From positions 119,484 through 160,884 of the forward strand of contig MU646930.1 in assembly GCA_026770585.1 (NCBI GenBank): 41,401 bases of DNA, read 5' to 3'. Origin of the DNA: Baffinella frigidus. Lineage: Eukaryota; Cryptophyceae; Cryptomonadales; Baffinellaceae. How positions within the stretch are numbered: the stretch's first letter is position 1; each line of letters opens with the position of its first letter. Position numbers and translations under genes: made by a program. The notes below the pieces were generated by a model that was not told where the DNA came from, did no database searches, and worked only from the letters and a program-made list of their open reading frames with translations. Positions 1 through 41,401 of this stretch are shown piece by piece.

Positions 1-131
1 ACCCCAAACCCCAAACCCCAAACCCCAAACCCCAAACCCCAAACCCCAAACCCCAAACCCCACACCCCAAACCCCAAACCCCGAACCCCAAACCCCAAAC
101 CGCAATCCCCGACCCCCAAACCCGAAACCAG
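1..131. repeat. CCCCAAA telomere-like array at left edge
   Basis: This is a tandem array of CCCCAAA heptamers, with variants near its right end. It finishes in GAAACCAG, a plausible 3' splice site in front of an open plus-strand stretch. The same arrangement (C-rich repeat, then CCAG, then exon) recurs at well-supported exons elsewhere in the window, so I read it as intron sequence and not as a telomere. Confidence 0.85.
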
Positions 132-3012: not shown

Positions 3013-3519
3013 CGCACGCACGCGCTCCCTGTCTCTCTCTCTCTCTCTCTGTCTCTCAGCTCCTCTCTCTCGCTCTCTCCTCACCTCTCTCTCTCTCTCC
3101 TCACCTCTCTCTCTTTCTCTCCTCACCTCTCTCTCTCTCTCTCTCCTCTCACAGCAGCCCGAGCATCAATCACGCGTTCCGCGTGCCCGTTCCCGATTTA
3201 GGGTTTCGTCTTCGCCTGTACCAGAAGGGAGGGTTTAGGGTTCAGGGTTGAGGGTTTAGGGTTTAGGGTTTGGGGTTTAGGGTTTAGGGTTTAGGGTTTG
3301 GGGTTTAGGGTTTATGGTTTAGGGTTTGGGGTTTGGGGTTTAGGGTGTAGGGTTTAGGGTGCAGGGTTTAGAGTTTATTCTCAAAGAGAGGCTTTTTCCA
3401 ATTTCTCTTTGAGACTGCATCCGACACTCCTTCTCCTGAGGACCTCCCTACCCCCCCCAAGAGGGGGGAGACGCGTCACGATCGAAACACCCACGCAAGA
3501 ACGGGGGTGAAAAACGCAC
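2592..3519. repeat. CT-rich microsatellite and TTTAGGG array downstream of the Ala-rich gene
   Basis: A CTGT tract gives way to a long imperfect CT tract at about 2815-3155. A degenerate TTTAGGG array follows at 3195-3376. An AGAGAG...CTCTCT-type hairpin lies around 3380-3412 (TCAAAGAGAG against CTCTTTGAGA). No credible exon was found, so the 3' end of the minus-strand gene to the right was not located; it may lie here or further left. Confidence 0.8.
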
Positions 3520-6500
3520 CGCATGAGCAGCCCCGTTCCCGTCAGGTGCCGTCGCAGCGCGCAACGCTCCCACCGCCACAGCTTTTGCCTGTGAAGCTGA
3601 TGCCGGCGCGGGTTTTGCCGCGGGCGCTGCTGCTTTGGCGGAGCTTGCTGCCACGGGCTTCACGGCGGCCTTGCCCACACCCTCAGCTGCCGCCCAATTC
3701 TTCTCCCGCTGCGGCGTGTGCGGGTTGAGGTTCCGTCAATACGCGTGTTTTTCTGGTACGGAAGTTTCTGGTACGACCAACCCACACAGTGAACTACAAG
3801 CCACTTTGTAAAAGTCAATATCCGTGTTTTCCGGGTGATGGTGATGGGTTGAGGAGCACGAGGGGGTGAGTGTCAGGGGCAGGGCGAGGTTAAGTGGCAC
3901 GACGGGGTGAGGTGAGGGGGTGAGGGAAATACCGTAGTGTTCAGGGTTAGGGTTTAGGGTGCAGGGATTCGGAGTGTGGGTCTGGCGTGTGGTCGGGGAG
4001 TTACATCCATGAGGTGGTGCATGGAACTCCTTCACCCCTCAAGATCGAGTTGATGAATGTAACACCCCCGCCCCCTCTCTGAAAACCGTCAAGCTTGAAA
4101 ATGTCCACGTTGCCGCCGTCATCAGCAAGATTGAGGTCATGAATGTAACTCCGCCCCACACTCACTCTGTGAGTCCCTGCCACGCCCACGCCCTGAATCC
4201 CTGGATCTGAACCTCCAACCCCTGAACCACGAACCGTCAAGCTTGAACATTTCAACGGGGTCGCCGTCACCATCAACTCGATCTTGAGGGGTGAAGGAGT
4301 TCCATTCACTACCTCCATCTTGAGGGGTGGGGAGTTACATTCATGATCTCGATCTTGGCATCCAAGGCGGCCACGCAAACCCTAGTCGCTATGTGGGACC
4401 CGCCTCCCCAACAGCAGGAAAGCCTGCTTCAAAATGCCGACGTGGTTTCTGGTGCGGGGTCCAGGGTGCAGGGATTCGGAATGTGGGTCTGGCGCGTGGT
4501 CGGGGTGGTACATTCATGATCTCGATCTTGGCATCGAAGGCGGCCACGCTGGCGATGGGCTTACTCCGCGCCGCCGCCGCCTGCCGTTAGGGTTTAGGGT
4601 TTAGGGTTTAGGGTTTAGGGTTTAGAGTTTAGGGTTTAGGGTTTAGGGTTTGGGGTTCAGGAATTAAATTGGTCTTACTCCGCGCTGCTACCACCTCTTG
4701 CTTTGGGGCCGTTAGGGTTTAGGGCTAAGGGTTGATGATTTAGGGGTTAGCGTTGAGGAGTTGGGAATTAAATTGGTCTTACTCCACGCCGCCGCCGCCG
4801 CCGCCTGTCGTTAGGGTTAAGGGTTTAGGGTTCATGGTTAAGAGTTTAGAGTTTAGAGTTTAGAGTTTAGGGTTGAGGATTTAAATCGGTCTTTACTCCG
4901 CGACGCTGCCTCCGGTTTTCGTGCCGTTAGGGTTTATGGTTTAGAATTCAGAGTTTAGTGTGTAGGGTATGTGGTTTAGGATTGAAAGTGGTTTACTCCG
5001 CGCTGCGGCAGCCTCCGTTCGTGCCGGGACGGCAACTGATCGAATCCCGCCAGATGAGATCAGTACATCTCACAAACAACAACCCGGCCCGGTCCCACAT
5101 TCATAGGCTAACGGCCTGAAAATGGGGTAGTTAGGCATACGGCATTGACTAGGACCTCCTACCGTAGGCCGAGGGATCCTAGGACCAAAAAGTCTTGGCC
5201 TACGGTAGGAGGTCCTAGGCAATGCCGTAGGCCTAACTACCCCATTTTCAGGCCGTTACCCCATTAACATCAAGATCATCGATACCTTCAGGGCGGCAGG
5301 CGCCGCACTCGCGCCTACAGCAGGCACGGGGTCGGGTGTGCCAATTCGAGAAAATGACGTTTCATGCTATCTTATGCATGAGATTGATGACACGATAGCA
5401 TCCCCCACCCACAAGATGACACGAAACGGCGCATTTTCGCCAGATTTCCGCCCGACTCGACCCTGAAAAAATCCAAGCCAACCCGCATTCTACAATACAT
5501 ACCTTGGGGGCGGCAGGCGCCGCGCTCGCGCCTACAGCAGCCGCCGACCCCCCCCCCCCCCCCCCACCTCCTGTCCGCACCGCAACGCCCACCCCCGAGC
5601 CGGCGGCGCCAACCACCGCGCTGGCGGTGGCGGTGCCGCCCACCGCAGCCGCGACCGTGCTGGCGGTGCTGCCAACCGCTTTGACCACTGCGCCCTCGGC
5701 GCTCGCCACCGCGCCCGCCATCTGGGGTATGGTTTGTGGGTAAGGTTTGGAGGCTTGCAGATATTGTGCCGCCCTGGTTCAAAATTGCTTTCTTGAGGAA
5801 GTATAGCCGAGCGGGACTACATAAACCCCCGAAACTGTAGCCCGTGCATCACCAGTGATAGTAACGATACGATGTAATCGCTCACGGCTCGCCATCTGGG
5901 GAGAGGCGCGCCGTCAGCTTATGCGTCGATTGTTGCAAGATTGTGCACACCTAATAGAGGTCTTGGGAAGTGGGCAGGGATGGCCGTCCACAGAGCTGTC
6001 CCGGAGGCGCGTCTAGCCAGGCAGGCAGAGGCGTGGCACTCCACCAGTTCAGTCCAAGATGAGGAATCGTTTCTTCGCTCGCGGCGTGCGGGTCGTCGAT
6101 CAAAGGGAGTGGGGTACACGTCTACAACGTTTTTCATCGAGGAGCACTGATTTTTCCGTCAAGCCCACGCCTTGCTGAACAAAGTCTCGTAATTATCAGT
6201 AGTGAAGTTTCATTTCCAAACTGTGCTCTGCGTGCACCTTCGCCATCATTGCAGACACGGACAATGCCGTGGCCTGCACGGGCTGCGCCGCGGGCTTGGC
6301 GTGCGAGCGCTGATACCGACATATACGTATATCAGGAGCGCTGATACCGACATAAACGTATAACAGGAGGGCTCGGGGATCTAGCGCACCTTCGCCATCA
6401 TCGCAGACACGGACGATGCCGTGGCCTGCACGGGCGGCGCCGCGGGCTTGGCCACAGCTGCCTCCTTGCTGCCGACCGCGGCCTGTTCGGTACCGCCGAT

Positions 6501-9291
6501 TTAACGCGGAAAAAAATTCAATTCAAACACGTATTTTTCTACCTCAAAGGTGTAAATGGTTATCTTAGCCTCGACAGAGCTGTACCATACCACAACAATA
6601 CCCAGAAGATGGCACACATGTGGTTTGAATTGAATCTGTTTCCACGTGCGATTCAGGCCGCACCTCTGCTGTCTCCTTGCTCCCTGCCGCGGCCTGTTCG
6701 GTACCGCAGATTCAGTGCCGCCGGGACCGCGCCGCCCCCCCCTCGTGCAGGTCAACGGGCGGGTGGTTCATCGCTGCCACCAGAGTCTCAATTGCCGACT
6801 GAATCAAGCTTTCCCTGGTACGAAGCCTGCTCTCATGCTCAGGGGCCACGTAAGGTTGCCCCGTCCTGGGCAAGCAAGGCGTGCTGGGTTTACTAAACCA
6901 CAACCCCCGCCATACCTGTGAAACGGCAAGCCATACCTGTGAAACGGCTTTTTGACAAAAAGCTGCCCACGAGACCCAGCCGGCAGTGTCGTGCGGGATC
7001 CTTTGTTTTTCTCTTCGTAGATCAAAAAAACAACAACGAGCTATCCCGAAACACAAAATATTTCGACCCACCGTGAGACACACGCTACGCACCCTCACCT
7101 CAAAACCCTCTCGACTGCAGGGTCATTTACCTTACGGTATTGACCACCTCGGCTCCTCGAAACAATGGGCTACCCCAAAGATTCAAAAACATACACAACC
7201 AAACCTAACAACGATTCACGCGCGCGCACCTATCGCCTCCTGCGCACAAAAAACTGCCAGCACTCGCGACGGCACAGCGCAAGTTGCGCTTCTTTCTGGA
7301 CAGCTCTACCATCTCTTCCTCTGCAACTGCTCGCCCGATAGCCGCGGATGAGTGAGGCAGAAGCCATACCTGTGAAACGGCAGGCTTCGCAGGCGTCGCC
7401 ACCGCGGCCGCAACCTTCGCGGCCGGCGCCGCAACTTTCACCGGCGACACGGCCACTTTAGGCGCGGGCGCTGCAGGCGCCACCTTGGGCGCGGGTGCCG
7501 CGCTTTCAGGCGCCTTTGCCGCTGCAGGGGGTGTCGCCTGTCCCGCGGTTTTGAGGGTTGAGAGTTGAGAGTTGAGGGTTGAGGGTGAAGGGTTCAGGGG
7601 GTGGAGCTGCCTTGGCCGCCGCAGGGGTTGCCTCCTGCAGGTAATCATAGAGCTTGAGATTGAGATTGAGAGAGATTTCATCCGGTCGAGTATTTGAGTC
7701 AAATACGATTTCGGGGATCTCCGGTTCGATTTGCAACGAAAATTACTACACGGACGTGACTGAAAATGTCCGGTGTGTAGTAATTTTCGTTGCCAGGACC
7801 GTATTTGAGTCAAATACTCGCCGCGATTAGATTGAGAGAGAGAGCCTCATGGGCGGCCTTGGCCGCCGCAGAGGGTGCCTCCTGCCTCGCGGTTTGAGGG
7901 GTTGGGGTTCAGGGGTTGGGTTTCAGGGGTTGGGTTTCAGGGGTTGGGTTTCAGGGGTTATTCCCCCGTCAAGCGGCGTACGCCCTACACCGAAACACAT
8001 AGCCGCCTTTGCCGCCGGTGCCTCCTGCATGTAATCAGAGGGATTGCGATTGAGATTGAGATTGAGATTGGGATTGAGATTGAGATTGGGATTGAGATTG
8101 AGATTGAGAGAGATCGAGAGAGACAGCCTCAGACGCGACCGTTGCCGCCGCCGCCGGCAACGGTCCCCCAACCCCGCGGTTTCAGGGGTTAGCACCCCAC
8201 CACGCGTCGTACCCCATGAGCCGAAAACGGAAAGCATCTCTCACCCAAGCACACACCGCACCGTGCGCCCTGCGCCAAAAGCAGGAAGCACCACACACCA
8301 AACACACACGCCTCAAGCACCACACCGGAAACCGCACGGGCGCAACCTGCACTGCCTGCGCTGCGCGCGCCTCCGAGAGGAGACTAGCCGGTCAACGCAT
8401 ATGGGCTTGGTGACAGGAGGAGTCTGGCGGCGCGCCGATGCCTATATACGTCACTAATCAGGCCCACATACGTCAACAATACCTGGGGCCAGCGGTGGGT
8501 CAACGCCCGTTCCGCCTGCTCTACCGCCTTCTCTCCCGCTTCAGGGGCTTTTTCCTATCCCTTAAGTGACCAGGCCTCCAAATTTGGGGGCCTGAGGTCC
8601 TAGGCTGGTCCTAGGGCCCTACGGTAGGGCGTATAAGCCTACTGGCCACTTAAGGGAGAGGTAAATCCTAAACTCTAAACCCGCAGGGGCGGAACCTGGG
8701 GCGAGCGGTGGGCCAACCTATAAACGTTAATAATACAGCTTGTATACGTCAATTGTACGGCCGTATACGTCAACAATACGGCCTGTATACGTCAACAATC
8801 AAGCCTATATACGTCAACGATACCTGGGGCCAGCGGTGGGCCAAGGCCTCACGATCCGCCTTCTCTCCCGCTGGAGGGGCTTTCTCCTATAGGTTTGTCC
8901 TACACCCTAAAACCGTAGGGGCGGAACCTGGGGCGCTCTGTTGGCCACCTATATACGTTAATAATACAGCCTGTATACGTCAATAATACGGCCGTATACG
9001 TCAATAACAAGGCCCGTATACGTAAATGGCACCTAGGGCGCGCGGAGGGCCAACGCCTCCCGCGGAGTACCGCATTCTCTCTCGTCTGAGAGGCTAGGAT
9101 CACATGATTTCCTACATGTACTAGATCCAACACGTGCGACTCCTGGGCTTGTGATGAACCCTGAAATCGCAGAGGGGGGGGACCTGGGGCGCGCGGTTGG
9201 CCAACACCTCACGATCCACCTTCTCCTTCGCCTCTGCCGCCGCCGCCGCCTGCGAGAGAGAGAGAGAGCATGAGAGAGAGCGAGAGAGAAT

Positions 9292-9327
<36 letters not shown>

Positions 9328-12300
9328 GAGAGATAGAGAATGAGAAAGAGAGGGAGAGAGAGTGTGTGTGTGTGTAAGAGAGAGACACTTAATTAATGAG
9401 AGAGAGAGAGAGCGAGCGAGAGCCGCCTGCAGAGCATGGCGCACCGCGCGCCAGCAAGCCTACTTCCTATCTCTGAAGGAGCAAAAGCCTCACGATCCAC
9501 CTTCTCCTTCGCCTCTCCGCCTGGTGTCGTTGCGTGTGCTTAGCTTCAAGGGTTGACAGTTGAGGGTGTATACACACGCTCAGGGGAGCATGCACCCCCA
9601 CTTCCTACCTCTGAATGAGCAAAAGCCTCACGATCCGCCTTCTCCTTCGCCTCTGCTGCTGCCGTCTGGCGTCGTTGTGTGCGCTTCGAGTGAAGGGTGG
9701 AGGGTTCATGGTCAAGGGTTGAGGAGTTTGAGTTCAATGAATGAGTAAAAGTGGGCTAGGAATAAAAATATTTGGACTTGGAAAAGCCTCGCGCTCTGCC
9801 TTTTCCTTCTTGCCTCTGCCGCCGCCGCCGCCTGGTTGAGGGTTTGGGGTTTGGGGTTTGGGGTTTGGGGTTTGGGGTCTGGGGTTTGGGGTTTGTTGAT
9901 GGTTTTTTGATGGTTTGTTGGGGTTTGTTGGGGTTTGTTGGGGTTTGATGGTTTGGGGTTTGGGGTTTGGGGTTTGGGGTTTGGGGTTTGGAGGCTTGGG
10001 GTTTGGGGTTGGGGTTCAGGATTCAGGGATTGGGGTTCAGGTTTTAGGGTTTAGGGTTTAGGGTTTAGGGTTTAGGGTTTAGGGTTCAGGGTTCAGGGGT
10101 TAGGGTTCAGGGTTGAGGTTTTAGGGTTGAAGACCTCCCGTGCGCGCACCATGCGAGCATGCTCCAGCTCCCGATCCTTAGCCTCCGCAGCCTGAGTGTC
10201 CGTGGAAACAGAGTCAATACGGATGGGATAAATCCTAACATAGTCAATACGGATGGGCTTAGCCTCGACATGGCTTCTCCATAGGACGAAACCCACACCT
10301 AAGATAGCCAAAAGTGTTTTAAATCAAATATGTGTCCACATGAGATAACATGCAAGGCTGCGAACACCATAAGGTGTTGGACTACACTAAACCCTAGGGC
10401 GCGAGCCCTAGGGCTTAGTCCGTCACCATAGCGGAACTCACCGAACGCACGGAGGCAGCAAAGGTGGCGGTACTTAACGCAGTGCGTGCCCCCCTGTATG
10501 GTGGCTGGGGTCGGGGGGTGTGTACCGCGGTCTGCCGACGCGAGCCCTGAGATAGTCCAAGGCGCGACTAGCCTAGGGCTCGAGGCCTACAGGGGTACTT
10601 CGCTCATGAGAAACGGCCACCCCCCTAGGGACCACCATGGGGCCCTAGGCATAGCCCTACTGTGGGGTCCTAGGGGGGGGGCGGTTTCTTACGAGCAAGG
10701 TACCCCTGTAGGGCCGACAGTCGCCCAACCCCTTCTGGCGAGTACCGTGCATTCGGTGAGTTCCGATATGCTGCCTGTGGGCGTGCTCCCCTGTGGTGGC
10801 TGGGGGAGGGGTGCACGTATCGCAACCGCCACCGCCGCCATACATCTCCTCCCGAGTGTACCGAGGAGGCCGTGTTTAGCCAGGGCGGGGGCGGGGGGCG
10901 GGTGCACGTACTGCGGTAAGAACCGCCGCCTCTGCCGCCTCCTTGGCTAGATGGTGATTAGGGGCTGGGTACACGTACCGGGGTAAGCACCGCCGCCTTT
11001 GCTGCCTCTGTGCATTCGGTGAGTTCCGCTATGGTGACGGACTATCTTAGGGCGGGGGCGGGGGGCTGGGTGCACGCACCGCGGTAAGGACCGCCGCCTC
11101 TGCCACCTCCTTGGCACCCTGTGGTAATTACTCTAGATTCGGTGCATCCCGACATGGTGAATAGGATTCCCTAGATTCCAACTGGAATGTCCCCCGAGAA
11201 TCCGGGCGAAACTATCTTCGGTCGCTGCTAAGTGGTTGGTGACTAGGGGCCGGGGGCACGTACCGCGGTAAGGATCGCCGCCTCAGCCGCCTCCTTGGCG
11301 CACCTCTCCTGATCGGCCTTCTCCTGCGACGCACTCGGGCGTCAGCGACGCAAATGGATCAGATTCTGGTACACATCGTTTAGATGGGACTGTATGCATC
11401 TAGATGGACAATACATCGTTACACATCGTTTAGATGGACTGTATTTAGATGGACCGCCGCCTCCTTGGCGCACCTCTCCTCGCCAGCCTTCTCCTGTCAC
11501 GCATGAGAAGTCAGCGTTCCCAGCCACCCCACTTAGCAGCGGCCGAGTTCCTTTCCCCCCGGATATCCGGGGGAAATGCGGTTAGAATCCAATGCAAATG
11601 GATAAGATACTAGTACATATCGTTTGGATGGACTGTATCCGTGAAGCACCCGGTGGCTGCCTAGTGGTAGGAACGGCGCGTGTCCTTAATTTCGAGCAAC
11701 CCCTGCCCGGCAGCCGATTCCCAGCTCTTCCTGAGTTTTATTCTGGCTGGTCGTGAAGGCTTTCTTTTCGCCCTGTTGTACTGAATTTCTGCTCTTAAAT
11801 ACTTCTGAGCACAAGCCAGATTAAAACTCCGACAGAGCTAGGATTCCCGCACGCGGCGAGCCTTGAGGGTGTGGTTCAGTGACACCCCCAAGCCGAAACC
11901 CGAAACCCTGTTGTGCAGGCTTTCGTGTTCTGGGTGCAGTGTTCTGGGTAAGGGTTTAGGGTTTAGGGTGCAGGGGGCAGGGTTCCGTTGGGTTCAGGGT
12001 TCAGGGTTCAGGGTGCAGGGTGCAGGGTGCAGGGTGCAGGGTGCAGGGTGCAGGGTGCAGGGCTCAAGGCTCAGGGTTTAGGGTTTAGAGTTCAGGGTGT
12101 AGGGTTGAGGTTTAGGGTAGAGGCTAGAGGGTTGGGGTTTAGGGTGAAGGCTAGAGGGTTGGGGTTTAGGGTTCAGACCCGTGCGATCAGGGTTGAGGGT
12201 TTAGGGTTCAAAGTTCAGGCTTCAGGATGTAGAGTGAAGGATACAGGGTTGGGGTTGAGGGTTGGGATTTAGGGTTGAGACCCGTGCGATCTGCTGAGGG

Positions 12301-12344
12301 GTGAGTTCGATGGGGGCCTCCACTGGCGCAGGAACAGCCGGCAC
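3520..12344 (-). CDS. Ala-rich, helical multi-exon protein (partial gene model)
   Basis: At least eleven minus-strand exons have AG|exon|GT borders and are all phase 0 at both ends: 12344-12282, 11323-11264, 10191-10135, 9665-9609, 9249-9184, 8886-8824, 8554-8483, 7537-7370, 6482-6390, 5721-5503, 4580-4512 and 3681-3520. The first reads VPAVPAPVEAPIELTPQQIA. Next come charged Ala/Lys/Glu helices (EKADQERCAKEAAEAA, AKEKVDREVLANR), likely coiled coil. Then Ala/Pro/Lys-rich stretches follow, as in histone H1-like tails (KVAAPAAKVAAAVATPAKPA), and a Gly/Ala segment. I recognise no family and no catalytic motif. Start and stop codons were not found, and which exons are really joined is inference. 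All lie on one strand and could read through in frame. Many are flanked by decayed copies of themselves. It could also be two genes, or a continuation of the CBM20 gene upstream. Confidence 0.6.
4043..4575. repeat. inverted and direct copies of the IEIMN exon end
   Basis: The minus-strand exon 4580-4512 ends ...AKIEIMN|GTACCA. A direct partial copy ends at 4339 (minus strand, AKIEIMN|GTAACT). On the plus strand related copies end at 4059 (LKIELMN|GTAACA) and at 4144 (SKIEVMN|GTAACT, open from 4088). The plus-strand copies are inverted relative to the gene. All keep the splice donor. Confidence 0.65.
4588..5040. repeat. four TTTAGGG-plus-exon-start units
   Basis: Each unit has a short degenerate TTTAGGG stretch followed, on the minus strand, by the start of the Ala-rich exon (GCGGCG...GCGGAGTAA). 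Copies lie around 4670-4700, 4770-4805, 4890-4925 and 4985-5025. They look like decayed tandem duplicates of the acceptor plus first codons of exon 4580-4512. Confidence 0.7.
5110..5257. mobile_element. near-perfect foldback element
   Basis: Two arms of about 60 bp (5110-5170 and 5198-5257) are almost exact inverses, beginning AACGGCCTGAAAATGGGGTA. The centre holds the CCTACCGTAGG motif also found inside families B and C. It lies in a predicted intron. No coding capacity is present. Confidence 0.85.
6238..6294 (-). pseudogene. partial duplicate of exon 6482-6390
   Basis: Minus-strand PAAQPVQATALSVSAMMAK followed by GTGCAC matches the second half of exon 6482-6390 (PAAPPVQATASSVSAMMAK, then GTGCGC). 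The duplicate has an AAG acceptor and stays in phase 0, so it could be used as a shorter extra exon or be a decayed copy. A copy of the exon's first part (AAAGSKETAE|GTGCGG) lies to the right at about 6672-6702. Confidence 0.6.
7688..7822. mobile_element. family E hairpin element, copy 1
   Basis: The inner arms are CGAAAATTACTACAC and GTGTAGTAATTTTCG (about 7737-7790). The outer arms include TATTTGAGTCAAATA, itself palindromic, on both sides. Related hairpins occur at 22330, 31362 and 35071. Confidence 0.8.
8430..9030. repeat. TATACGTCAA minisatellite units between duplicated exons
   Basis: Units of about 20 bp built on GTATACGTCAACAATACGGC recur at 8435-8480, 8715-8820 and 8945-9020. Each block precedes, in plus coordinates, a copy of the minus-strand exon ending AHRWPQ or ANRAPQ. 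Exon and intron unit therefore appear to have been duplicated together. A degenerate exon copy at about 9094-9040 has lost its CAG end (TAG). Confidence 0.7.
8556..8658. mobile_element. family C element touching a splice acceptor
   Basis: The termini are TATCCCTTAAGTGACCAG and CTGGCCACTTAAGGGA. On the minus strand its left end reads ...AAGGGATAG directly before exon 8554-8483 (GAAAAAGCCCCT...), so the element appears to provide the AG of that acceptor. The sister exon at 8886 uses CCTATAG instead. Confidence 0.75.
9253..9423. repeat. GA microsatellite
   Basis: This is a GA-rich simple repeat with a short GT tract at about 9361-9374. It separates two duplicated Ala/Lys/Glu exons of the minus-strand gene. 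Confidence 0.9.
9834..10134. repeat. TTTGGGG / TTTAGGG intron array
   Basis: Tandem TTTGGGG (9840-10010) grades into TTTAGGG (10030-10130). On the minus strand the C-rich array runs from the donor of exon 10191-10135 to the acceptor of a decayed Ala/Lys/Glu exon copy at about 9833. The array therefore fills that intron with its C-rich strand as sense. Confidence 0.85.
10421..11115. repeat. inverted and direct copies of the EAAKAAVLTA exon
   Basis: Minus-strand copies ending A/V-L-T-A|GT(A/G)CGT lie near 11112-11076, 11035-10983 and 10942-10907, besides the intact exon 11323-11264. A plus-strand copy at 10421-10486 (ELTERTEAAKVAVLNA, then GTGCGT) is an inverted duplicate of 11035-10983. Several keep good donors but lack a clear acceptor. 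Confidence 0.6.
10588..10710. mobile_element. family B element, copy 3
   Basis: The termini are TACAGGGGTACTTCGCTCAT and the inverse ACGAGCAAGGTACCCCTGTA. The core contains CCTAGGACC-like and CTACTGTGGGGTCCTAGG motifs. It sits in a predicted intron. Confidence 0.85.
11940..12281. repeat. TTTAGGG / GTGCAGG intron array
   Basis: A degenerate TTTAGGG array with a perfect GTGCAGG heptamer block at about 12012-12062. It begins just downstream (minus sense) of the donor of exon 12344-12282. A copy of that exon's last codons plus donor (GCACGG|GTCTGA) lies inside it at about 12173-12185. Confidence 0.8.
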
Positions 12345-14272
12345 CTGCTCGGTTCACACAATTTGCTCAGAGCAGTGTGCAGAGAACTTACTTTTGCCAA
12401 ATGTGAAATATAATTCTTGAACGGTCACTTAGCAGGGACCGAAGACCTTTTCACCTTGAATTCAAGGTGAAATTTCGGTTGGAATCCAGGGCAATGGATA
12501 ATATTTTAGTACTAATCGTTTAGATGGACTGTATCCGTGAAGCCCTCGTTGGCTGTTACGTGGATTGCTCGAACGCATCTCGGAATATATCTGGATCAAT
12601 TCCGTTTCTCTAGGAGATTGAATAGGAGAAATTAGATAGGGCATTGTAAATTCAATTAGGCCTCCTAAGTAAATGAAAACACTAACTAGGGAACTGATTC
12701 AGTTATCTTTCGAGATGAGAATGCATCGTGGCTTGCAACGCGGGTGTGTGAAGATCCATTCCTGAGCCTTGTTCCCTACCATTCACACAGTGGGCTTCGC
12801 AGATCGGTCCATGTATTTTCGTGCTATTAATCACGAGTTGCTAGGTACAAAAAAATCCGATTAACCGAAATTTCATCCAGAATTATGGGGTTGGGGTTTG
12901 GGGTTTGGGGTTTGGGTTTTGGAGTTTGGGGTTTGGGGCTGTTGGGTTTGGGGTTCGGGGTTTGGGTTTCGGGGTTTGGGGTTTGGGGTTTGGGGTTTGG
13001 AGTTTGGGGCCTGGTGTTTGGTGTTTGGTGTTTGGTGTTTGGTGTTTGGTGTTTGGTGTTTGGTGTTTGGTGTTTGATGTTTGGTGTTAATCACGAATTG
13101 CTTGGTACAAAGAAATTCGATTAACCGAAATTTCATCCATAATTATGGGTTTGAGATTTGGTGTTTGGGGTTTGGTGTTTGGTGTTTGGCGTTTGGGGTA
13201 TGGGGTTTGACCTCCCCGAAGAACCCACCGTGGATCACTCGCACTTCCGCGGGTCCCTCAGACGCTGCAATGGGCAGAAAGCCTTCAGAACATGAAGCCT
13301 TTAGGACGAGCCTCCAGACCACGTGCCCACGTTTTTCATTTGCCATTCAGGGCTAGCGTTAAGCGTGTTCCCTGCGACGCTGCAGAAACAAGGGAGAAAC
13401 ACTACGGTTTAGTGTCCAGGGTTTAGACCCTGGACACTAAACCGTAGATCCAAGGATTAGGACGGCTGCCCTCATCCTTGAATCCGTAGTCTAAGGATTA
13501 GGGCAGCCGCACGGAAGCCCAGCATTCACGGGCCAGGAGCATCACCAGAAAACTTCATAGCTTCTGAATTTATCTATAGCCTCGGACTTCCGCCGTTCCC
13601 TGGGATGCTGTGAGACCGGTTGAGACAAAGACGCGACAGTTGGTCTCTGTTTAGGGTTTAGAGTCAACCTCACACCCTAACGCAAGTAGGTGGGGAAAGA
13701 CCGGTCGAGACAAAGGTACGACGTTTTGGAGGTTGAAGGAGTTTAGGGTTTAGAGCAAGCCTCAAACCCAGAGTATTCCTCAACCCCTAGGTGTGGGGGG
13801 CGAAACCGGTCGAGACAAAGACGCGGCGGTTGGTCTCTGCTCAGGGTCCTAGTGCACAACGTGCCCTGCGTTGTACATCTGTTCCAAAGCGGGTTCGGCG
13901 TAGGGCTCAAGGGAAACTTCGAAGGAAGCCGACGCCTTATCCACGCCAGAACTGGCGTCGTTGACTTAATTAAGACTCAAAGAATTTACCCTGAAAGATG
14001 TGCAAAGCGGATGTTTCGAGCCCTCTGGCGGGTGGAGACCGGTGGAGACGAAGACGCGGCAGTTGGTCTCTCCAGGCTCCCAGTGAGACGAACCGGTTGC
14101 TCTCTGTTGAGAGTTCAGAGTAAACCTCAAACCCTGACTCAAGTGTGCCTGAGCCAGGGCCTCAAAACCTCAAACTCTGACTCAGGGGAGAGACTGGTTG
14201 AGACGAAGACGCGACGGTTCGTCTCTGTTTAGGGTTTAGAGTGACCCTGACACCCAGAACCCAGAGTAAACC
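12345..14272. other. region between CBM20 gene and Ala-rich gene: repeats, no gene seen
   Basis: It holds a TTTGGGG/TTTGGTG array at 12888-13205, and a direct duplication of about 60 bp around TTAATCACGAGTTGCT (12826-12890 and 13085-13147) that flanks part of the array. There is a perfect palindrome at 13401-13447 (GTTTAGTGTCCAGG and its inverse). Decayed copies of the last CBM20 exon lie from 13310 on. No exon with a convincing protein signal was found between 12345 and 13300. Confidence 0.7.
13616..14232 (-). pseudogene. tandem decayed copies of CBM20 last exon
   Basis: Minus-strand copies of the exon at 14374-14273 lie downstream of it. The one at 13878-13805 keeps the acceptor and reads MYNAGHVVH, then a stop replaces the Trp and a frameshift follows. 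One at 14086-14041 has lost the start but keeps HWEPGETN. Shorter tails occur near 14190-14230 and 13616-13656. They share the GGTCTCTGTTTAGGGTTTAG flank, so exon and intron were copied together. Confidence 0.75.
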
Positions 14273-21600: not shown

Positions 21601-24600
21601 TTTGATCAGGCGTGGCTAACGTCGATCTTCGACCTGGCGTCGGTGCTCTGGACCGCGTGTATCGCCCACTGCCTCTGGCGCGCCATCCGCTACCACGATC
21701 TCGAGGTTCTCAAATCCTGCCAAGATTCTTTTGACCACCAGGAAGATAATTTGACCACTACCGCTGGTGCGCTAGTCGCGACCATGACCTCGAGGTGCTC
21801 GAATCCTGCCAAGACAGTTTGACCTTTGGTTTGACCACTGCCTGTGGCGCGTGCCATTCGCTACCACGACCTCAAGGTTCCTGCCACGATACTTCTACCA
21901 TGTGTTTTGCCACTAGTAGTGCCAAGTAGACGGGTGCTGTTGCGGAAGTGCTGGCAACCTTGCCACAGCAGCCACCTCTCGTTCTGGAATCAGTCAAGAG
22001 GTGCCAAAACACTGACGTTCCTTGGTGCAGTGAGCAGTGGTCCCCCCTCTCGGTTGGGGCGCGCTGGTGTGCATAGGTTGTAGCGTTTCGCGTTGAGGGT
22101 TCAGCGCCGAATATTGACGGTCTCGGTTGGGGCATGCCGGTGTGCATAGGGTGTAGAGTTTCGGGGTGATGGGTACCGCCGAACTCTAACTGGCCCCCAT
22201 GGAAAAGGTGCACCGATTTGAGAAGTACTACCACCTCTTCGCATTCGGAGTCCCTGTGTTCCTCGCTCTCCTCCCACAGCTCGTCGGTACAACCTAATCT
22301 CCGCAAAATTATTGATGAATTGCTTTCGGGTAACGAAATTTGCTACACGGTTGGGTCATACTAGTGATAGTAAAGCATTTGTGTAGTAAATTTCGTGCCG
22401 TTGTGAGAAGTACTACCACCTCTTCGCCTTCAGAGTCCCAGTGCTTCTCGCGCTCCTCCCGCAGCTTGTCGGTGCAGCCCCGCACCAACATTTCCTTGAA
22501 TTGAGGTGTAACCCGCCCCCCACCCATTTTCCCAAGGGTCCAAAAATATCGAAAAACGTGAATCCGTCTTTGCAAATCGTGGTACAAATAATAGAAAGAC
22601 CCAGGACGGAAGTTACGCGGCGATGTAGGGGCGATGTAGAGCCACGCTAAAGGTCGGTACCGCCAGCTGACGTACGCCTTGAGGCGACGGTATGGGCCTG
22701 GCACACATGGAGAACCTCTCTAGTAAATCTGAATACTCGATGCAGGGGCATACGGGCTGGAGAATGGGCAGTGCTGGATCCTGTCGTCGTGGTCTTCGCT
22801 CATGTGAACCCCACACCCTCTAGCTCTGTCTCGACTGGTCGTTTTCACGCCGTAAGTTGTCAGATTTTTACCACACTCCCGTGGAAACAACTTCCGGATC
22901 CTGTCTTCATGGTTTTCCTTCATGTATACCCCACATCCTGGGTGTTTAGGGATTAGGGTTTAGCGGGCAAGAATCATTTGTACATTGTCGTGACGCTGTT
23001 CAAAGGGTATAGATCATGTACCGCAAGTGTGTCATCTGATATTACGTCCTCCTTTTCCAAAAATACATCCGAATCGTCCGAATCATGTACACGCTCGTTG
23101 AATCCGCCTCTTGCAGGGCAGAGATTTTTCGCGCCAAAGCCAAAGTATCGCCACGCTCCGTGGTGCCGTTCTCGCCCCAAATCGCGGCATCGTGACATTC
23201 ACTTCCTCCCCCCATCCTCCCTCCCTCCCAATGTACTTCTCCTTCTCCTTCTTTGTTTCTCGCGAGCCTGACAAAGTTTCATGGCGGTAGGTTTTCATCC
23301 CTTGGGGGCGTTATTACCCCTCTCCCACACTTGCCGAGCAAAACATGTCGACGTACAAAAGCCCGTCAACATAGGAAATTATAGCATGAAACTATCTCCG
23401 AGGTCGGGCGGCAGGTTTGTCTAGTTCTAAATTCCACTGTGGCTGGTGATAGCCTTCTTGCTGTTCTCAACCCAAATGCATGCATGCATCGTGAACTCCT
23501 TTTCCAGCCCTACTTTCCACGCTGGCACTAAATCGCTGCACTTTGCACTGCTCCCGCAGGTTTATCCACTTGTACATTCCACTGTGGCTGGTTGGTGGTG
23601 ATCTTCGTGCCGTTCGTGCCCTATATCTAATTGCGGGACACGCCAGACTCTGGCCCTCAAACCCTGAACCCTGAACCCTGAATACTGAATACTGAACACT
23701 GAACACTGAACACTGAACACTGAACACTGAACCATCTACCCCTGCAGGTTCATCCAGTTCTACATCCCACTGTGGTGTGTGGTGATCTTCAACGTGGGGA
23801 TCTTCTACCGAATCTTCCGCAACCTCCGCGGATTCGTCCAACCTGAGGACACCCAGGTTCTAGCTCTCTAGCTATGTCCCAGTTCAATTTGGGCTCGTAG
23901 ATAGAGAGTCCCCCCCGAAATTTCACAGGTGAATTTTGACGCCCCCCCCCCGTGAAATTCATCTGTGAAATTTCGGGGGGGGCATTCTATCTTCGAGCCC
24001 AAATTGAACTGGGAGCTAGGCTCTGTCTCCGTCTCCACACAGCGGTCTACGAAGGGATTGTCGGCCCAAATCGGGCCGACTTTCCTGTACCTTATCCGTA
24101 GGAACCCCCTTATGTCCCTACGGGTTGCCTACGGTACGAACCCCCCTATGTCCCTACGGGTTACTCGAAATCCGGTGGTGGTCTTCAACGTGGGGGTCTT
24201 CTACCGCATCTTCCGCAACCTCCGCGGATTCGTCCAACCTGAGGACACCCAGGTTCTAGCTCTCTAGCTATGTCCCAGTTCAATTTGGGCTCGTAGATAG
24301 AGAGTCCCCCCCGAAATTTCACAGGTGAATTTTGAGGGGGGGGGGGTCAAAATTCACCAGTGAAATTTCGGGGGGGGCGAAATATCTACGAGCCCAAATT
24401 GAACTGGGAGCTAGGCTCTGTCTCCGTCTCCACACAGCGGTCTACGAAGGGATTGTCGGCCCAAATCGGGCCGACTTTCCTGTACCTTATCCGTAGGAAC
24501 CCCCTTATGTCCCTACGGGTTGCCTACGGTACGAACCCCCCTATGTCCCTACGGGTTACTCGAAATCCGGTGGTGGTCTTCAACGTGGGGGTCTTCTACC

Positions 24601-32439: not shown

Positions 32440-33057
32440 GGGCCTTCATACCTTCATATATGCTCTCGACGCTGATCGCAATCAGACGACGAGAACGGAC
32501 GGTTCTGAGGCCGTATTCGGTTTTCAATGCATCATCATGTAAGGCGTTGCATGCTTCACCTTTTTTTCGCCTGCAAGCGCTGCACCCAGTGTACAGGGGT
32601 ACCTTACTCAGAAGACATCGCCCCCCCCGTAAGACATTCACTGGGCCCTACAGGGGATACCCCGCTCATAAGAAACTGCTCCTCCCCCCTAGGGACCACC
32701 GTAGGGCCCTAGGCGTAGGCCTACTGTAGGGTCCTAGGGGGGGGGGGGGTCTTATGAGCGAGGTACCCCTGTAGGCATAGGTCTACGCCCGTACTGTAGG
32801 GTCCTGAGTTGGTCTTAGGAGGGGGGGCGTTCTTGTGAGCGAGGTACCCCTGTAGTGACACCCAGGCGTAAGGGAAAGCCAGAGCATTTCTCCAAAAGAG
32901 ATAATAACCCGTGTGGGATGACCGGAGTGACTTTACACAGTCACGTCCACTAAGGAGATATAAGCCTGCACGTGACCGCGGATCTTTCCTCTCCTCAGTA
33001 AAGCCTCACTCGCACACGATGTCTCTGTGTGTCTCGAGCGCCCGAGCGAAACCATAA
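31151..33057. other. receptor 3' region: MITE-like elements and microsatellite
   Basis: It holds a half family C element (31164-31240), a foldback with family E core (31342-31450), a family C element (32019-32117), and a GA microsatellite (32318-32440). Nested family B elements lie at 32592-32855 around 32649-32774. A dispersed repeat (GGATGACCGGAGTGACTTTA) at about 32918 is shared with 30880. No exon with clear protein signal was recognised. Confidence 0.7.
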
Positions 33058-33227
33058 ACCATCAACCATAAACCATAAACATGAAACCCTAAATCCTAAA
33101 CCCTAAATCCTAAACCCTAAACCCTAAACCCTGAACCCTAAACCCTGAAGCCTAAATCCCGAACCCTGAACCCTGAACCCTAAACTCTAAACCCTAAACC
33201 CTAAACCCCAAATCCCAAAACCTAACC

Positions 33228-33280
<53 letters not shown>

Positions 33281-33542
33281 ACCGTAAACCGTAAACCCTA
33301 AACCCCAAAACCAACACCCCAAACCCCAAACACCAAACCCTGAACCCTAAACCCTGAACCATAAAATCCAAGCCCTTAACCCTCAACCCTTAATTCTGAA
33401 TCCCAAACCCTCAACCCTCAACCCTCAACCTTAAACCCTGAAACCTATACCCTAAACCCTAAACCCTAAACCCTGAAACCTAAAACCTGAACCTTAAACC
33501 CTAAACCCTAAACCCTGAACCTTAAACCCTAAACCTTAAACC

Positions 33543-33581
<39 letters not shown>

Positions 33582-33800
33582 ACCCTTAACACTGAATCCC
33601 AAACCTCCAACCCTCATCCCTAAACCCGCAACCCTATACCCCAACCCCTAAACCCTAAACCCTGAACCCTAACCCCTAAACCCTAAACCCTAAACCCTTA
33701 ACCCTAAACCCTAAACCCTCAACCCTCAACCATCAACCCTCAACCCTCAACCATCAACCCTCAACCCTCAACCCTGAACCCTAAACCTTAAACCGTAAAC
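33058..33800. repeat. CCCTAAA / CCCTCAA array, C-rich on plus strand
   Basis: This roughly 740-bp degenerate heptamer array (CCCTAAA, CCCTGAA, CCCTCAA) has its C-rich strand on the plus strand, opposite to the arrays of the minus-strand gene to its right. By the pattern seen at supported introns, this fits an intron of a plus-strand gene, here the receptor's 3' end. Confidence 0.9.
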
Positions 33801-36900: not shown

Positions 36901-39900
36901 ACTAATTACTTCATCGTGTCCTTACTAAACGCACTTCGTGTTTTCCACCAGAACTTTCCCTAGAGGGTGCTTTCAGCAAACAGCAACGACAGAGGTTGCT
37001 TCAATTCCAATTTTTTCGTTTTCAATTTCATCCAGATGAGACTTCAGATCTTGATAAAACAGTTGGAGCTTTGTTGTAATGATTTCACTTAAGTGAGAGA
37101 GAGACCTTTATCACAACCAACACGGCCGCCATGTATGGACCCCCGCCGATGCAACCACACCGAGGCTATCTGCGAACAGGACCTACAGGGGTACCTCGCT
37201 CAAAAGAAACTGCGCCCCCCTAGGACCCTACAATAGGCCTAAAGAGTATGCATATGGCCCCACGGCGGTCATGAGGGGGGGGCGCTTTCTTATGAGCGAG
37301 GTACCCCTGAAGGGAGCGGCCATACAAACTACACGGTGTGATTTTGACTTAATGGCATCAAGTTTGACTTAATGGCATCACGCCGCCCCCCCACCATCTG
37401 TCGGGCGCAGCTTGTTGAGAACCAGTTCGTCTTCAGAATCGCCCAAGCTGATCTCCTCGACGACTGCCGGCTTGCTCTCGGAGCCCCCCACCGCCCTGGT
37501 TTAGGGTTCAGGGTTGAGAGTTTAGGGTTTAGGGTTTAGGGTTTAGGGTTTAGGGTTTAGGGTTTTCGGTTGAGAGTTTAGGGATTGTGGGTTTCTGGGT
37601 TTAGGGTTTAGGGTTTAGGGTTGAGGGTTTAGGGTTTAGGGTTTAGGGTTTAGGGTTTAGGGTTTAGAGTACAGGGTTTAGGGTTCAGGGTTCAGGGTTC
37701 AGGGTTCAGGGTATAGTGTCTAGTGTCTAGTGTTTAGTGTCAAGTGTTTAGGGTTCAGGATTTTAGGGTTTAGGGTTTAGTGTTTAGGGTTTAGGGTTTA
37801 GGGTTTAGGGTTGAGAGTTTTAGGGTTTAGGGTTTAGGGTTTAGGGTTTAGGGTTTAGTGTTTAGTGTCTAGTGTTTAGTGTTTAGTCTTCAGGGTTCCG
37901 GGTTCAGGGTTTGAGAAGGGTTTAGGATTTAGGGATTAGGGTTTAGGCTTCAGGGTTTAGGGTTTAGGGTTCAAGGGATATGGTGTGGGGTTAAGGGTTT
38001 ATAGTTTATGGTGTACCCGCCATCCCCCTCAAGTTTGCTCCGCTTCGCCCCCCCCTTTGCCCCCCCCTTCTCCTCCCGCGTCCTCTTCCCCTCACTTGCA
38101 ACCTTCCCCTCTTCCGGGGGGAACGCGTGGCCCGCATGCCCCCCCCCGTTGCTCGCCTTCTGAACCGTGGAGGCAGCGCCGGTGCTCGCCCCCACCGCCT
38201 TCACGCCCGCGGTCGCTTTCTGCCCCGCGCTGTTGAGAGACGCTGCGGCCGGACGGTGCTCCTGTTTGGACGATGCACCTCCTGCGGCCGCGGCCGCGGA
38301 GCCCGCCTTCGGGAGCGAGCTGGCGTTCGCAAACGCAGCTGGCTCGCGTTTGGCTTCGGCCGCAGCCTTGATTTTGCGATTGCGACGATTGACCATCTCG
38401 CGAAAGTCCTTCCAGATCTGCGAGAGATTGGTTATTAATTGCCAAACAACCAGCGCCAGCACCGCACATGCCCGACGCATTGTGCTACTTACTGTACCCC
38501 GTGTCAGCCGCCCTTACGAGCTGTTTCCGGAATGATTCGATTTTCACGTCTGCGGCACAGCGCGAGTAGAGTTACAGGGATTCTCAAAAATCACAAGAGC
38601 CCACACTGCTCGAGGGGCGGTGGGGGCTGCGTCCTGAGGTGGGTCCTTCTCCGAGGGTCCTAGGACTCAAAAGGATTGGCCTACCGCAGGTTGTGGCGTG
38701 CAGGTTCAGGATTTAGGGTGTGGGACCGCCACGCGCAAAGGTGCCCCTCCCCAGAGGTGACGACAGCATTTTCGAGTAGTCCCCCCATGCTAGGTGTGCG
38801 GTACAAATCCGTCAACTTTGGAGAGGAACAGAGACCGGTCTGACCAAATCGGTGCGCACAAACAGACCGAGACAGAGCTAGAATTCGGTGGCCTGACCTG
38901 ATTCTTCTCTTCCGCCGCCGGCACCGGCGTCTGGATCTGTTTCATATTTCGAGTTTAGGGTTGTCGCATTTCAGGGATGAAAAAGCCCTCGTGGAGACGG
39001 AACGCTCCCTAAGGTCCTTGAGGTTTTAAGAGCTCCCAACATAAGCGAAAACCTCGCCTTTCCGTAGAAAGGATCTGCAGAAAAAGCTTCTCACGGAAGT
39101 CAGCTCCGAGAGTCGTAAGAGAATGCTAGGACGAAAATATTAGGGTTTAGAGCTCAGGGTTTGGGGTTGAGGGTCTGGGTCCTCGACCTCTTTATGAAGC
39201 TGGGCGATGTCATCCTGCAGTTTTGTCGCGATAAACAACTTGATTACCTTCAGGCGTTGGCTCTCCCTGGTTGAGGGTTTAGGGGGTAAGGGTTTAGGTT
39301 TTAGGGTTTATGGGTTAGGGTTTAGGTTTCAGGATTTAGGGGTGTTGGGTTTAGGGTGTAGGGTTTATGGTTTATGGTTTATGGTTCATGGTTTATGGTT
39401 CATGATCTATGGTTTATGGTTTATGATTTAAGGTTAAGGGTTTATGATTTATGGTTTAGGGTCCAGGGTTCAGGGTTTAGGGCTTAGGGTTTTGAGTTGA
39501 CCGCGCCTTGTTCCGTTCCTCGTGAGAATCTTTCACCGCTGCGAGTGCATCCGCGAACGTCCAGTTGCCCCCCCCTCCTGGTTTAGGGTTTAGGTTTTGG
39601 GGTTTGGGTTTTAGGTTTCAGGTTTTAGGGTTTAGGGGTTGGGGGTTGGGGTTAACGGTTTGAGGTTTAAGGGTTAGAGTTTACCGCCCTCCCCGGTCAT
39701 CCGCATGACGGTGACCTGGTTTAGAGTTTAGGGTTCAGGGTGTAGGGTTGAGGGTTTAGGGTGTGGGGTTTAGGGTTTAGGGTGTGGGGTTTAGGGTTTA
39801 GGGTTTAGGGTGTAGGGTTTAGGGTTCAGAGTTTAGGGTTTAGGGTTTAGGGTTTGGTGTTTAGTGTTTAATATTTCGAGTTTAGGAATCAGTGCTTAGG

Positions 39901-41344
39901 GTTGAGGGTTCAGGGTTTAGGGTCTAGGGTTTAGGGTTTAGGGTTAAGGATTTAGGGTGACCGCTGCGAGAACAGCCGTGTACTTTGTCCCGGTTTTGCA
40001 GTGAAGAAGCACCTGGGGAAAGAGGCGAGCGTGTCATCTTTTATTGCCTCCCAGCCAGACGCACCCGCCCGTGTGTCACACATCCTTGCGCTGTCTCAGC
40101 ATGTGTTGGTCTCACCAATTCGGTGAGACCGGGCTCTTTTTCACCCGCGCGCACGTACCACGGAGATGAAACTCGGAAGCTTGTCTGGAGTGGCCCGCCG
40201 CAGGACGCAATGGGCTGCATTTATTTAGGACCTTTTCGACGACGCCAGTTCAACAAAGTCGTCTCTCTCACTCTCTCTCTGCAGGGGCGGCACCTTGTTC
40301 CCTTTCTTGCAGTGGGCGATGATGAGGTTTGTGAGGTTCGTCAACTCCCTTCCAATTCCAAGCAGCTTCCCGCTGAAGAAGTCATCTGGCATGCCCACGT
40401 AGTCGATCCCCTGCAACCCAACAACGCGGTATTATGTTATTACACGGTGAGCTACGAGAGTTTCGGATCCGCTAGATTTAGCGGTAACATGAACAAGCTT
40501 GCATCAGAAAATCCTTCAAGTTGACAGTCCCCTGACAAGTTGGCTTTGGATGAAAGGTCCGTAGTCCACCGTGTGGGTAGTTGACCACTTTTCAAAAGGC
40601 TGAAGGGCATCTCGAGGTTCTTTCTGAGGATAATAAAGAAGACGACGAACAAGCTGACCCAACACCGCAGAGCGGTGTTGGGTGTCCCGTTCCGGAGAAA
40701 AACTGACTTTAGTGCCAAACCTCCTGCCCGGAGGCAGACCCCTCCTAGATTCTTTCCTGCAAGGCAGCACACCGACCTTGGAGTCCGTGTGGATTTATGG
40801 AGAACCCAGGTTTACTCGGACAGAGCTAGACCTCCCTCCGCACGGCACAAACACGTGATGTGGCCCACATCCCAGCGGGGCGCGCTGTCACATTTAGGAC
40901 CTTTAGGATTGACGGATTCCCAACGTAGGCGGACCTCTCGCCCTTCCGGCAAAGACTCAAAACGACTAAAGGGTAGTGAAAATGGGTATCGAATATTAAG
41001 CTCACTCCAGCTCGGATACCTTCTTCTTCTGCGTGCCCGTGAGGCTCCCCGCTTTGTTGGCGAACCTGGTTTGGGGTTTAAGGTTTAGGGTTTAGGGTTT
41101 AGGGTTTAGGGTTTGGGGTTTAGGGTTTGAGGTTTAGGGTTCAGGGTTCAGGGTGCAGGGTTTACTCTTTGCTGCACCCGACACCCATGATCAGGGAGAA
41201 GCCCTGGTCGGACAGAATCCTGGTTTCGGGTTCATGATTCATGGTTCAGGATTTAGGGATTAGGATTTGGGTTTAAGGGTTCAAACCGGAAGTCCAGCTG
41301 CGCGCTCCCCGCGAAGAACAGGTTGATGGACGGGCCCTCCGACC
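33997..41344 (-). CDS. dual-specificity phosphatase-like protein lacking the catalytic Arg (5' partial)
   Basis: Fifteen exons join in phase: 41344-41287, 41219-41166, 41065-41020, 40410-40294, 40012-39962, 39715-39685, 39577-39502, 39266-39188, 38936-38898, 38417-38017, 37495-37395, 36096-35982, 35316-35178, 34900-34796, 34107-33997 (506 residues visible; the 5' end lies beyond the window). Exons 1-7 follow the DSP fold: INLFFAGSAQLDF, ILSDQGFSLIMGVG, GIDYVGMPDDFF, LTNLIIAHCKKGNK, then the phosphate loop VLLHCKTGTKYTAVLAA, and NWTFADALAAV. Cys and the upstream Asp remain, but the loop Arg of HCxxGxxR is Tyr, which should weaken or abolish phosphate binding. It may be a pseudophosphatase that binds or scaffolds. 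A helical segment follows, then a 134-residue Ala/Gly/Lys-rich region ending in a basic RTREEKGG...KRSK stretch. The C-terminus is acidic (SLGDSEDEL) and partly helical, ending FKRVQQELNAL. Exons 12 and 14 have weak acceptors. Confidence 0.87.
34641..34762. mobile_element. family B element, copy 5
   Basis: TACAGGGCTACCTCGTTCAT to the inverse GCGCGAGGAACCCCTGTA. It lies in the last intron of the phosphatase-like gene, about 33 bp downstream of the exon 14 donor. Confidence 0.8.
34903..35141. mobile_element. foldback abutting an exon, and family E hairpin
   Basis: CCCACACGAGGCTATT (34904) and AGATAGCCTCGTGTGG (about 35020-35035) are inverse ends of a foldback about 130 bp long. Its left end, read on the minus strand, is CCTCGTGTGGGAAG, immediately before exon 34900-34796, so the element seems to carry that acceptor. 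A family E hairpin (35071-35141, ACGAAATTTACTACACA) follows and lies about 36 bp downstream of the donor at 35178. Confidence 0.75.
35510..35775. repeat. direct repeat in phosphatase-like gene intron
   Basis: Two copies of roughly 75 bp, about 35515-35585 and 35700-35775, share GGTTTGATGTGATCTAAAAG-like and AGCATGG...TTACAGAACAAGT-like sequence. The interval is more AT-rich than its surroundings. No coding signal. Confidence 0.65.
36215..36390. mobile_element. foldback element
   Basis: GTGTGGGTAGTGAAGGTAGG at the left and its inverse CCTACCCTCACTACCCACAC at the right enclose further paired segments (AGCTACCATGGCACTC and inverse). Arms are about 60 bp each. It lies in an intron of the phosphatase-like gene. 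The interval 36391-37183 shows C- and G-runs but no recognised exon. Confidence 0.85.
37184..37309. mobile_element. family B element, copy 6
   Basis: TACAGGGGTACCTCGCTCAA and the inverse TTATGAGCGAGGTACCCCTG define the ends. It is followed at 37337-37381 by a short tandem duplication of TTGACTTAATGGCATCA. Confidence 0.85.
37496..38016. repeat. TTTAGGG array filling an intron
   Basis: About 520 bp of TTTAGGG and variants (TTCAGGG, TGTCTAG) run from the donor of exon 38417-38017 to the acceptor of exon 37495-37395. On the sense (minus) strand it ends ...CCCTAAACCAG|, so the last repeat forms the splice acceptor. Confidence 0.92.
39267..39961. repeat. TTTAGGG arrays filling three consecutive introns
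   Basis: The introns 39501-39267, 39684-39578 and 39961-39716 of the phosphatase-like gene consist almost wholly of TTTAGGG-like repeats (also TTTATGG). Each ends on the sense strand in AACCAG directly before the exon. Exons of 76 and 31 bp are embedded between them. Confidence 0.92.
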
Positions 41345-41401
41345 CTGTTGGGATATTTAGGGTTTACGGGTTTGTGGTTTGGGGTTTGGGGTTTGGGGTT
41401 T
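41066..41401. repeat. TTTAGGG / TTTGGGG introns at right edge
   Basis: The introns 41165-41066 and 41286-41220, and the partial intron 41345-41401, are telomere-like repeats interrupted only by the 54- and 58-bp exons. The last tract is TTTGGGG to the window end and precedes exon 41344-41287 on the sense strand. Confidence 0.9.

Follow-up and report, generated by a model that had tools for sequence, protein, structure and literature searches.

Telomere-like repeat arrays in introns of six genes of the cryptophyte Baffinella frigidus nearly all keep one orientation relative to the gene and may often have begun as insertions

Introduction

The origin of new introns is a long-standing question, and a stretch of DNA from the cryptophyte Baffinella frigidus poses it in concrete form: how do arrays of a telomere-like repeat come to occupy introns, and why does the C-rich strand of these arrays lie on the sense strand of the gene? 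The window analysed here is the whole of this stretch, 41,401 nucleotides in length (G000:C613:119484-160884) with a G+C content of 54.2%, and it comes from an assembly of 382,457,362 bases in 1364 contigs. By our array detector the window contains 26 arrays and 10 simulated windows (five from a Markov model of order 1 and five of order 2) contain 0, which rules out a chance origin of the arrays. The commonest unit of the form CCNNNAA is CCCTAAA (188 counts), which may be the telomere repeat of the species itself. The arrays are degenerate, with unit variants that are locally homogenised. Across the assembly, (CCCTAAA)x3 has 27,288 + 25,832 matches (53,120, overlapping matches counted), compared to 14 + 13 (27) for a reversed control. 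A random sample of the genome yielded 12 stretches out of 19 that are entirely N, and six with arrays, which carry 22 arrays on the majority strand of each stretch and 2 on the opposite strand; these arrays, sorted by stretch and not by gene strand, stand outside all counts below. In two non-algal collections, viral contigs gave 0 matches to the repeat, and a Legionella-labelled contig that shares a 19-mer contains no array by the detector and is taken as a chance match.

The phosphatase-like gene and other arrays of the window

Eleven exons on the minus strand join into a single open frame that closes with a TGA at 37378 (Table 1). The product has a weak match to DSPc (E 8.6e-5, 22.8 bits, under the Pfam cut-off of 33.5), a protein search gave no homologue among 988 candidates at E up to 10, and no paralogue was found in the genome, where all five matches are the gene itself. 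Its junctions are predictions from reading frame and splice consensus. Among the ten complete introns, six are 93-99% array, one contains a 40-bp array and three are array-free. Together with the partial intron at the window edge, the six bear out the statement of the initial annotation that at least seven introns of this gene are almost wholly array. The detector marks eight arrays in 37395-41401, every one of them with its C-rich strand on minus, the sense strand, and stops occur in all three frames of each of the six introns that are nearly pure array. The initial annotation also had the exons directly following one type of acceptor sequence; this is correct for the six near-pure introns, all of which end in AACCAG/G (a slash marks a splice junction here and below), but not for the partial intron, which ends differently (Table 1).

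Table 1. Coordinates of genes, introns and arrays in the window (positions of the whole stretch; a slash marks the exon boundary)
Feature	Position	Strand	Remarks
CCCCAAA array before possible plus-strand exon	1..129	+	ends CCAG/GAGCGG
13 arrays, all C-rich on minus	3230..13208	-	probable minus-strand gene with Ala-rich mini-exons
C-rich array upstream of receptor exon (exon start 23749)	23659..23741	+	receptor gene backed by P0001, 63% identity
754-bp C-rich array	33047..33800	+	
Last exon, phosphatase-like gene	37378..37495	-	stop TGA
Array intron, 521 nt, 99% array	37496..38016	-	GTACACCATAAA...AACCAG
Array-free intron	38418..38897	-	
Intron with 40-bp C-rich-sense array	38937..39187	-	array at 39140-39179
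Array intron, 235 nt, 99% array	39267..39501	-	GTCAACTC...AACCAG
Array intron, 107 nt, 97% array	39578..39684	-	GTAAACTC...AACCAG
Array intron, 246 nt, 98% array	39716..39961	-	GTCACC as direct repeat (donor, downstream exon)
Array-free intron	40013..40293	-	GTGCCG...CCCCAG
Array-free intron	40411..41019	-	
Array intron, 100 nt, 97% array	41066..41165	-	GTAAACCCTG...AACCAG
Array intron, 67 nt, 93% array	41220..41286	-	GTTTGAACCC...AACCAG
First visible exon, phosphatase-like (DSP) gene	41287..41344	-	
Partial intron at window edge	41345..41401	-	CCCCAAA/CCCTAAA array, 46 bp detected; ends CCAACAG/G, not CCTAAACCAG

Elsewhere in the window, a plus-strand exon of a receptor gene had been described as preceded by CCCTGAA repeats. 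The array does precede the exon, but the intron ends in AACCATCTACCCCTGCAG, and the array has no CCAG of its own at the AG. The description of the left-edge segment as following a CCCCAAA array agrees with the array found there, and the exon behind it is a candidate. Between the 13 arrays of the probable minus-strand gene, Ala-rich mini-exons (AAAEAKEKADREA-like, by eye) are repeated.

The window also contains other repeats. Within the receptor gene (23779-24650), a 395-bp unit stands in tandem about 2.2 times and doubles an exon coding VV(I/V)FNVG(I/V)FYRIFRNLRGFVQ. A satellite of about 104 copies of the 17-bp unit GCTCTAGGGATCTATGG spans 14935-16694. MITE-like palindromic elements around CCCTACGGTAGGGCCCTAGGACC are seen by eye at 1620-1700, 8561-8660, 20490-20600 and 30627-30730, and similar elements are found in introns of the Prp8 gene, both array-bearing and array-free.

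Array introns in conserved genes

Because the protein search gave no homologue of the phosphatase-like gene, we moved the junction tests to conserved genes of the same genome, using a splice-aware aligner that permits GT/GC...AG ends (plus GA in the transcript-protein run) and is blind to the arrays. Prp8, located via PF08083, aligns with human PRPF8 over 582 residues at 86% identity, with 0 gaps and 23 introns, and alignments to PDB Prp8 chains likewise cover the full length of these 582 residues. The CCT1 model, with 17 introns, was rebuilt from similarity to human CCT1. Its 526-residue query is 100% identical to P0002, a protein of 552 residues in the MMETSP and EukProt sets, and when P0002 is in turn aligned to the genome, the match covers 552 of 552 residues across the 17 introns. 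Among the 120 matches listed for CCT1, the closest organism-named protein is P0004 (taxid 464990, the cryptophyte Hemiselmis tepida), at 82% identity; together with the matches to light-harvesting proteins given below, this leads us to read the host as a cryptophyte that photosynthesises.

We take the MMETSP entries, the source set of P0002, to be RNA-seq transcript assemblies. With P0002 as a transcript-derived protein, the complete match means that the array introns of CCT1, where 15 of the 17 introns have C-rich-on-sense arrays, are spliced out in living cells, with junctions exactly where predicted. These introns are removed precisely from CCT1 mRNA, and arrays in introns as an artefact of gene models are ruled out for this gene. 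In the other conserved genes, splicing of the array introns follows from homology. The GT(GC)...AG ends fit both genes, as frame and identity hold across the 17 introns of CCT1 and the 23 of Prp8; the one GC-AG intron among the 64 introns described below lies in CCT1 (G000:C94:461640-461818) and is consistent with the protein match. The donors of the Prp8 and CCT introns vary widely at positions +3 to +6 (GTTCGT, GTGACC, GTCAAA etc.), and U1 pairing may be unusual in this alga.

Strand rule and splice silence

Orientation was counted in 64 introns of six genes: Prp8 (23), CCT1 (17), CCT4 (7), CCT6 (4), CCT3 (3) and the phosphatase-like window gene (10). Introns 4 and 5 of the 6 in CCT6 were left out, as the alignment between them is poor; one has a 255 bp C-rich array and neither has a G-rich one, and with both retained the C-rich count would rise by one and the G-rich count would stay the same. 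In the 64 introns, the sense strand is the C-rich one in 54 arrays and the G-rich one in 3 (p = 4e-13). Counted by intron, 45 of 64 have C-rich-on-sense arrays and 2 of 64 have G-rich ones, the three exceptions sitting in two introns longer than 1 kb that also contain C-rich arrays. The rule is the same for CCT1, on the plus strand of its contig, and for the other five genes, on the minus strand. Orientation thus follows gene strand, as had been proposed for the window, in 54 of 57 arrays, and the rule holds in the six genes examined, a narrower scope than the genome. Two arrays downstream of CCT1 face the opposite way, perhaps because they belong to a neighbouring gene that runs on the opposite strand. 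Outside the 64, introns of light-harvesting (LHC) genes add three C-rich-sense array introns in the genes C169 and C14 and no G-rich one, with no array in the four introns of C13; the alignments of LHC C188 and C537 are doubtful. That the arrays act as whole introns, a further proposal of the initial annotation, applies to a minority of the introns examined, with 15 of 64 being at least 80% array and 12 of 64 at least 90%.

The arrays often reach the acceptor. In a set of 53 introns, 38 of which have arrays, 17 of these 38 have at most 2 nt between the array and the end of the intron, and AACCAG, the commonest acceptor 6-mer of array introns, closes 16 of 45 array introns and 0 of 19 others (p 0.0015), in line with the earlier suggestion that the arrays supply the 3′ splice site. 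Deriving AACCAG from CCCTAAA needs two changes (CT to AG), and one-change routes to AG exist elsewhere in the unit; we infer that AACCAG may mark the boundary of inserted DNA. The branching A that the initial annotation also ascribed to the array is putative. Among candidate branch motifs in the stretch 12-50 nt before the acceptor, YTNAY is present in 20 of 53 introns and CTAAA is present in 23.

The composition of the arrays points to a reason for the strand rule. We counted letters in 59 intronic arrays (6,877 bp, ends trimmed) from the six genes, the two dropped CCT6 introns and the three LHC introns. Per 100 nt, the sense strand contains 0.86 AG and 0.22 GT, and the other strand 9.68 AG and 14.80 GT. 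Flipped to G-rich sense, the arrays have about one GT per unit, so that a G-rich sense array, with its abundant GT and AG, would present splice-like sites throughout. These counts support retention of the C-rich orientation as splice-silent, its sense strand being almost without GT and AG. The substitutions inside the arrays follow the same pattern: at position 5 of the unit, where A>G makes no new AG, there are 51 A>G and 42 A>C, and at position 6, where A>G makes an AG, there are 10 and 36. The depletion of AG-creating A>G relative to A>G that creates no AG (Fisher p 2.5e-4) is weakened as a test of selection within arrays if the position-5 variant is itself a telomere variant, which it may be.

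Marks of insertion

If an insert duplicates a short stretch of exon, the start of the intron should repeat the start of the next exon. Of the 64 introns, 11 have direct repeats of at least 4 nt between the two, where 2.47 would be expected. This count was reached in 0 of 10,000 permutations in which partners were shuffled within classes sharing the first two bases, so that the background is one of permuted introns and not of known old ones. Array introns have 7 of 45 against 1.54 expected (p 0.0002), leaving 38 of 45 without such a repeat, and array-free introns have 4 of 19 against 1.58 expected (p 0.013), so that both classes of intron bear this mark. Such repeats include GTCTAC, from Prp8, and GTCACC, from the phosphatase-like gene. 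Where an exon that follows an intron starts with G, it begins with GT in 33 of 55 cases, compared to 273 of 1,727 G's (16%) in coding sequence, an excess expected if the donor GT copies the exon start. Backward matches, between exon end and intron end, show no excess (43 and 43.9 expected, in 33 introns).

The light-harvesting proteins, with 9 genome matches for PF00504, offer a comparison of paralogues. Gene C169 has an intron of 287 nt, 264 of them array, with an 11-bp direct repeat, AGGTGAACAAC, at both ends, and its paralogue C768 (91 of 173 residues alike) is intronless at this site. Around the empty site, 30 of 40 bases of C768 match C169, and the 11 bases of C768 that correspond to the direct repeat include 2 mismatches; this is the one empty site found for array introns, and it is paralogous, not orthologous. 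The second array intron of C169 has an array-free counterpart in the paralogue C13, at the same position and in the same phase, which suggests that arrays may also fill existing introns. The flanking direct repeats and the intronless paralogue speak for the earlier proposal that the arrays arose as introns, and they support many array introns having begun as insertions. Probably both processes occur, some arrays having entered exons as inserts and others having filled introns that were already there.

Origin of the array introns

We think it fairly probable that the arrays are ordinary GT-AG spliceosomal introns with a telomere-like body, inserted into exons at staggered breaks, of which the splice-silent orientation survived. 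Telomere-like DNA would enter an exon at a staggered break, and the short duplication made there would give the donor (GTNN...) in its left copy and restore the exon with its right copy. The right end of the insert (...AACCAG) would provide the acceptor. An array that is C-rich on the sense strand would be splice-silent and free to grow or shrink, whereas one that is G-rich would offer an acceptor-like TTTAG/GG plus a donor-like GGGTTTAG in every exact unit. The insert would be a product of telomerase or a captured piece of telomeric DNA, and mutation and slippage would then have blurred its repeats.

That telomerase itself made the arrays is a guess. It is possible, though in our view doubtful, that this lineage owes its introns mainly to telomerase or to the capture of telomeric DNA in break repair. 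Exonic breaks would then be healed with telomere repeats, the duplication would become the donor, and the ...CCCTAAACC-AG end would be an imprint of the start of synthesis (e.g. bases beside the telomerase RNA template). If the telomerase reading is true, the flank of the telomerase RNA template is expected to read ...CCCUAAACCAG.

The strongest alternative, which we nevertheless consider unlikely, is that telomere-like minisatellites landed in pre-existing introns, or expanded there by slippage, and that selection against cryptic splice sites purged the G-rich orientation. The intron position common to C169 and C13, with an array in C169 only, is what this predicts, and local runs of variant units suggest slippage. 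Long non-array parts are frequent, few introns reaching the 80% mark, and splice silence accounts for the strand bias with no need of insertion into exons; array-free introns, moreover, carry direct repeats too. Against it stand the introns that are at least 90% array, with repeat from donor to acceptor, the confinement of the AACCAG end to array introns together with the GT-start excess of downstream exons, and the 11-bp repeat of C169 with its intronless paralogue.

A transposon-type family of introners, i.e. elements with target duplications and their own 3′ splice site, in which the arrays are filling, is quite improbable in our judgement. The splice layout is that described for Symbiodinium introners in passages of Gozashti et al. 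2022 (PMC9860276), where the target site duplication gives the donor and the insert carries the acceptor. The same passages report introners that lack terminal inverted repeats, and none are seen by eye in the printed intron ends here. Those ends have in common only the repeat, and often AACCAG, as judged by eye; near-pure array introns leave no space for another shared core, and direct repeats of 4 to 11 nt vary more in length than is expected from a single transposase. Least credible of all is a general bias that would favour pyrimidine-rich repeats of every kind on the sense strand because they act as polypyrimidine tracts: the C-rich arrays of the 53 introns do supply pyrimidines, as first noted (57% C+T on sense), but this is insufficient, since other pyrimidine repeats in these introns show no sense bias, with 7 (TC)n and 15 (GA)n runs on the sense strand, opposite to prediction, although the numbers are small and several runs may come from one tract.

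Comparison with known systems

Insertion into exons with the donor derived from a duplication and the acceptor carried on the insert would give the array introns the layout of the Symbiodinium introners. Target duplication with co-option of splice sites is likewise seen here in direct repeats above chance and in the 11-bp case, at array-free introns as well. The array introns differ from the introners of those passages in their degenerate 7-bp telomere-like body, in showing no common core or terminal inverted repeat by eye, and in the variable length of the duplication (PMC9860276). The introners of Amoebophrya are described as having direct repeats of 3-5 nt at intron borders, and strain A120 as having telomeres of TTTAGGG/TTTGGGG (PMC7789003). 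Border repeats and a repeat of the TTTAGGG/TTTGGGG type are shared with B. frigidus; those introners, however, are described as mostly non-canonical with inverted repeats, and the introns studied here are GT-AG, apart from the single GC-AG case.

Telomere repeats inserted at double-strand breaks, some with target duplications, are described from rodents and primates (PMC2246262), and the arrays resemble these interstitial telomeric sequences in having telomere-type repeats at sites of putative breaks, some with duplications. The passages of that paper cited here do not call its loci introns, whereas in B. frigidus the arrays are strand-polarised and removed by splicing, and 45 of the 64 introns tested contain them. 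A review reports that introns of Daphnia were gained in break repair, with short direct repeats flanking them, that in Drosophila conserved introns carry such repeats as often as gained introns do, and that conserved introns are the advised control for direct repeats (PMC3443670). The array introns share the short flanking repeats, found here in 11 of 64 introns by permutation within classes, and perhaps the conversion of filler DNA into an intron; they differ in that the filler is one repeat class under an orientation rule (PMC3443670). Amorphochlora amoebiformis is, like B. frigidus, an intron-rich alga with simple repeats in its introns, and [AT]n occurs in half of the 26 introns that its relative lacks (PMC12730881). 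This repeat, unlike that of B. frigidus, is not telomeric, and it is self-complementary, so that a strand rule is impossible there.

Among the titles and abstract openings of the open-access matches listed, a scope that leaves most subscription papers outside, there is no report of telomere-repeat introns. What appears to be new, with no report known to us, is the joining of telomere-repeat insertion, an introner-like layout and an orientation rule.

Significance

If telomere-type DNA becomes introns at such a scale, the healing of breaks would stand beside transposons as a large source of introns. The strand rule offers a simple and testable reason why one orientation survives, namely invisibility to the spliceosome, and the genome of B. 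frigidus is a natural test of which sequences are tolerated as the body of an intron.
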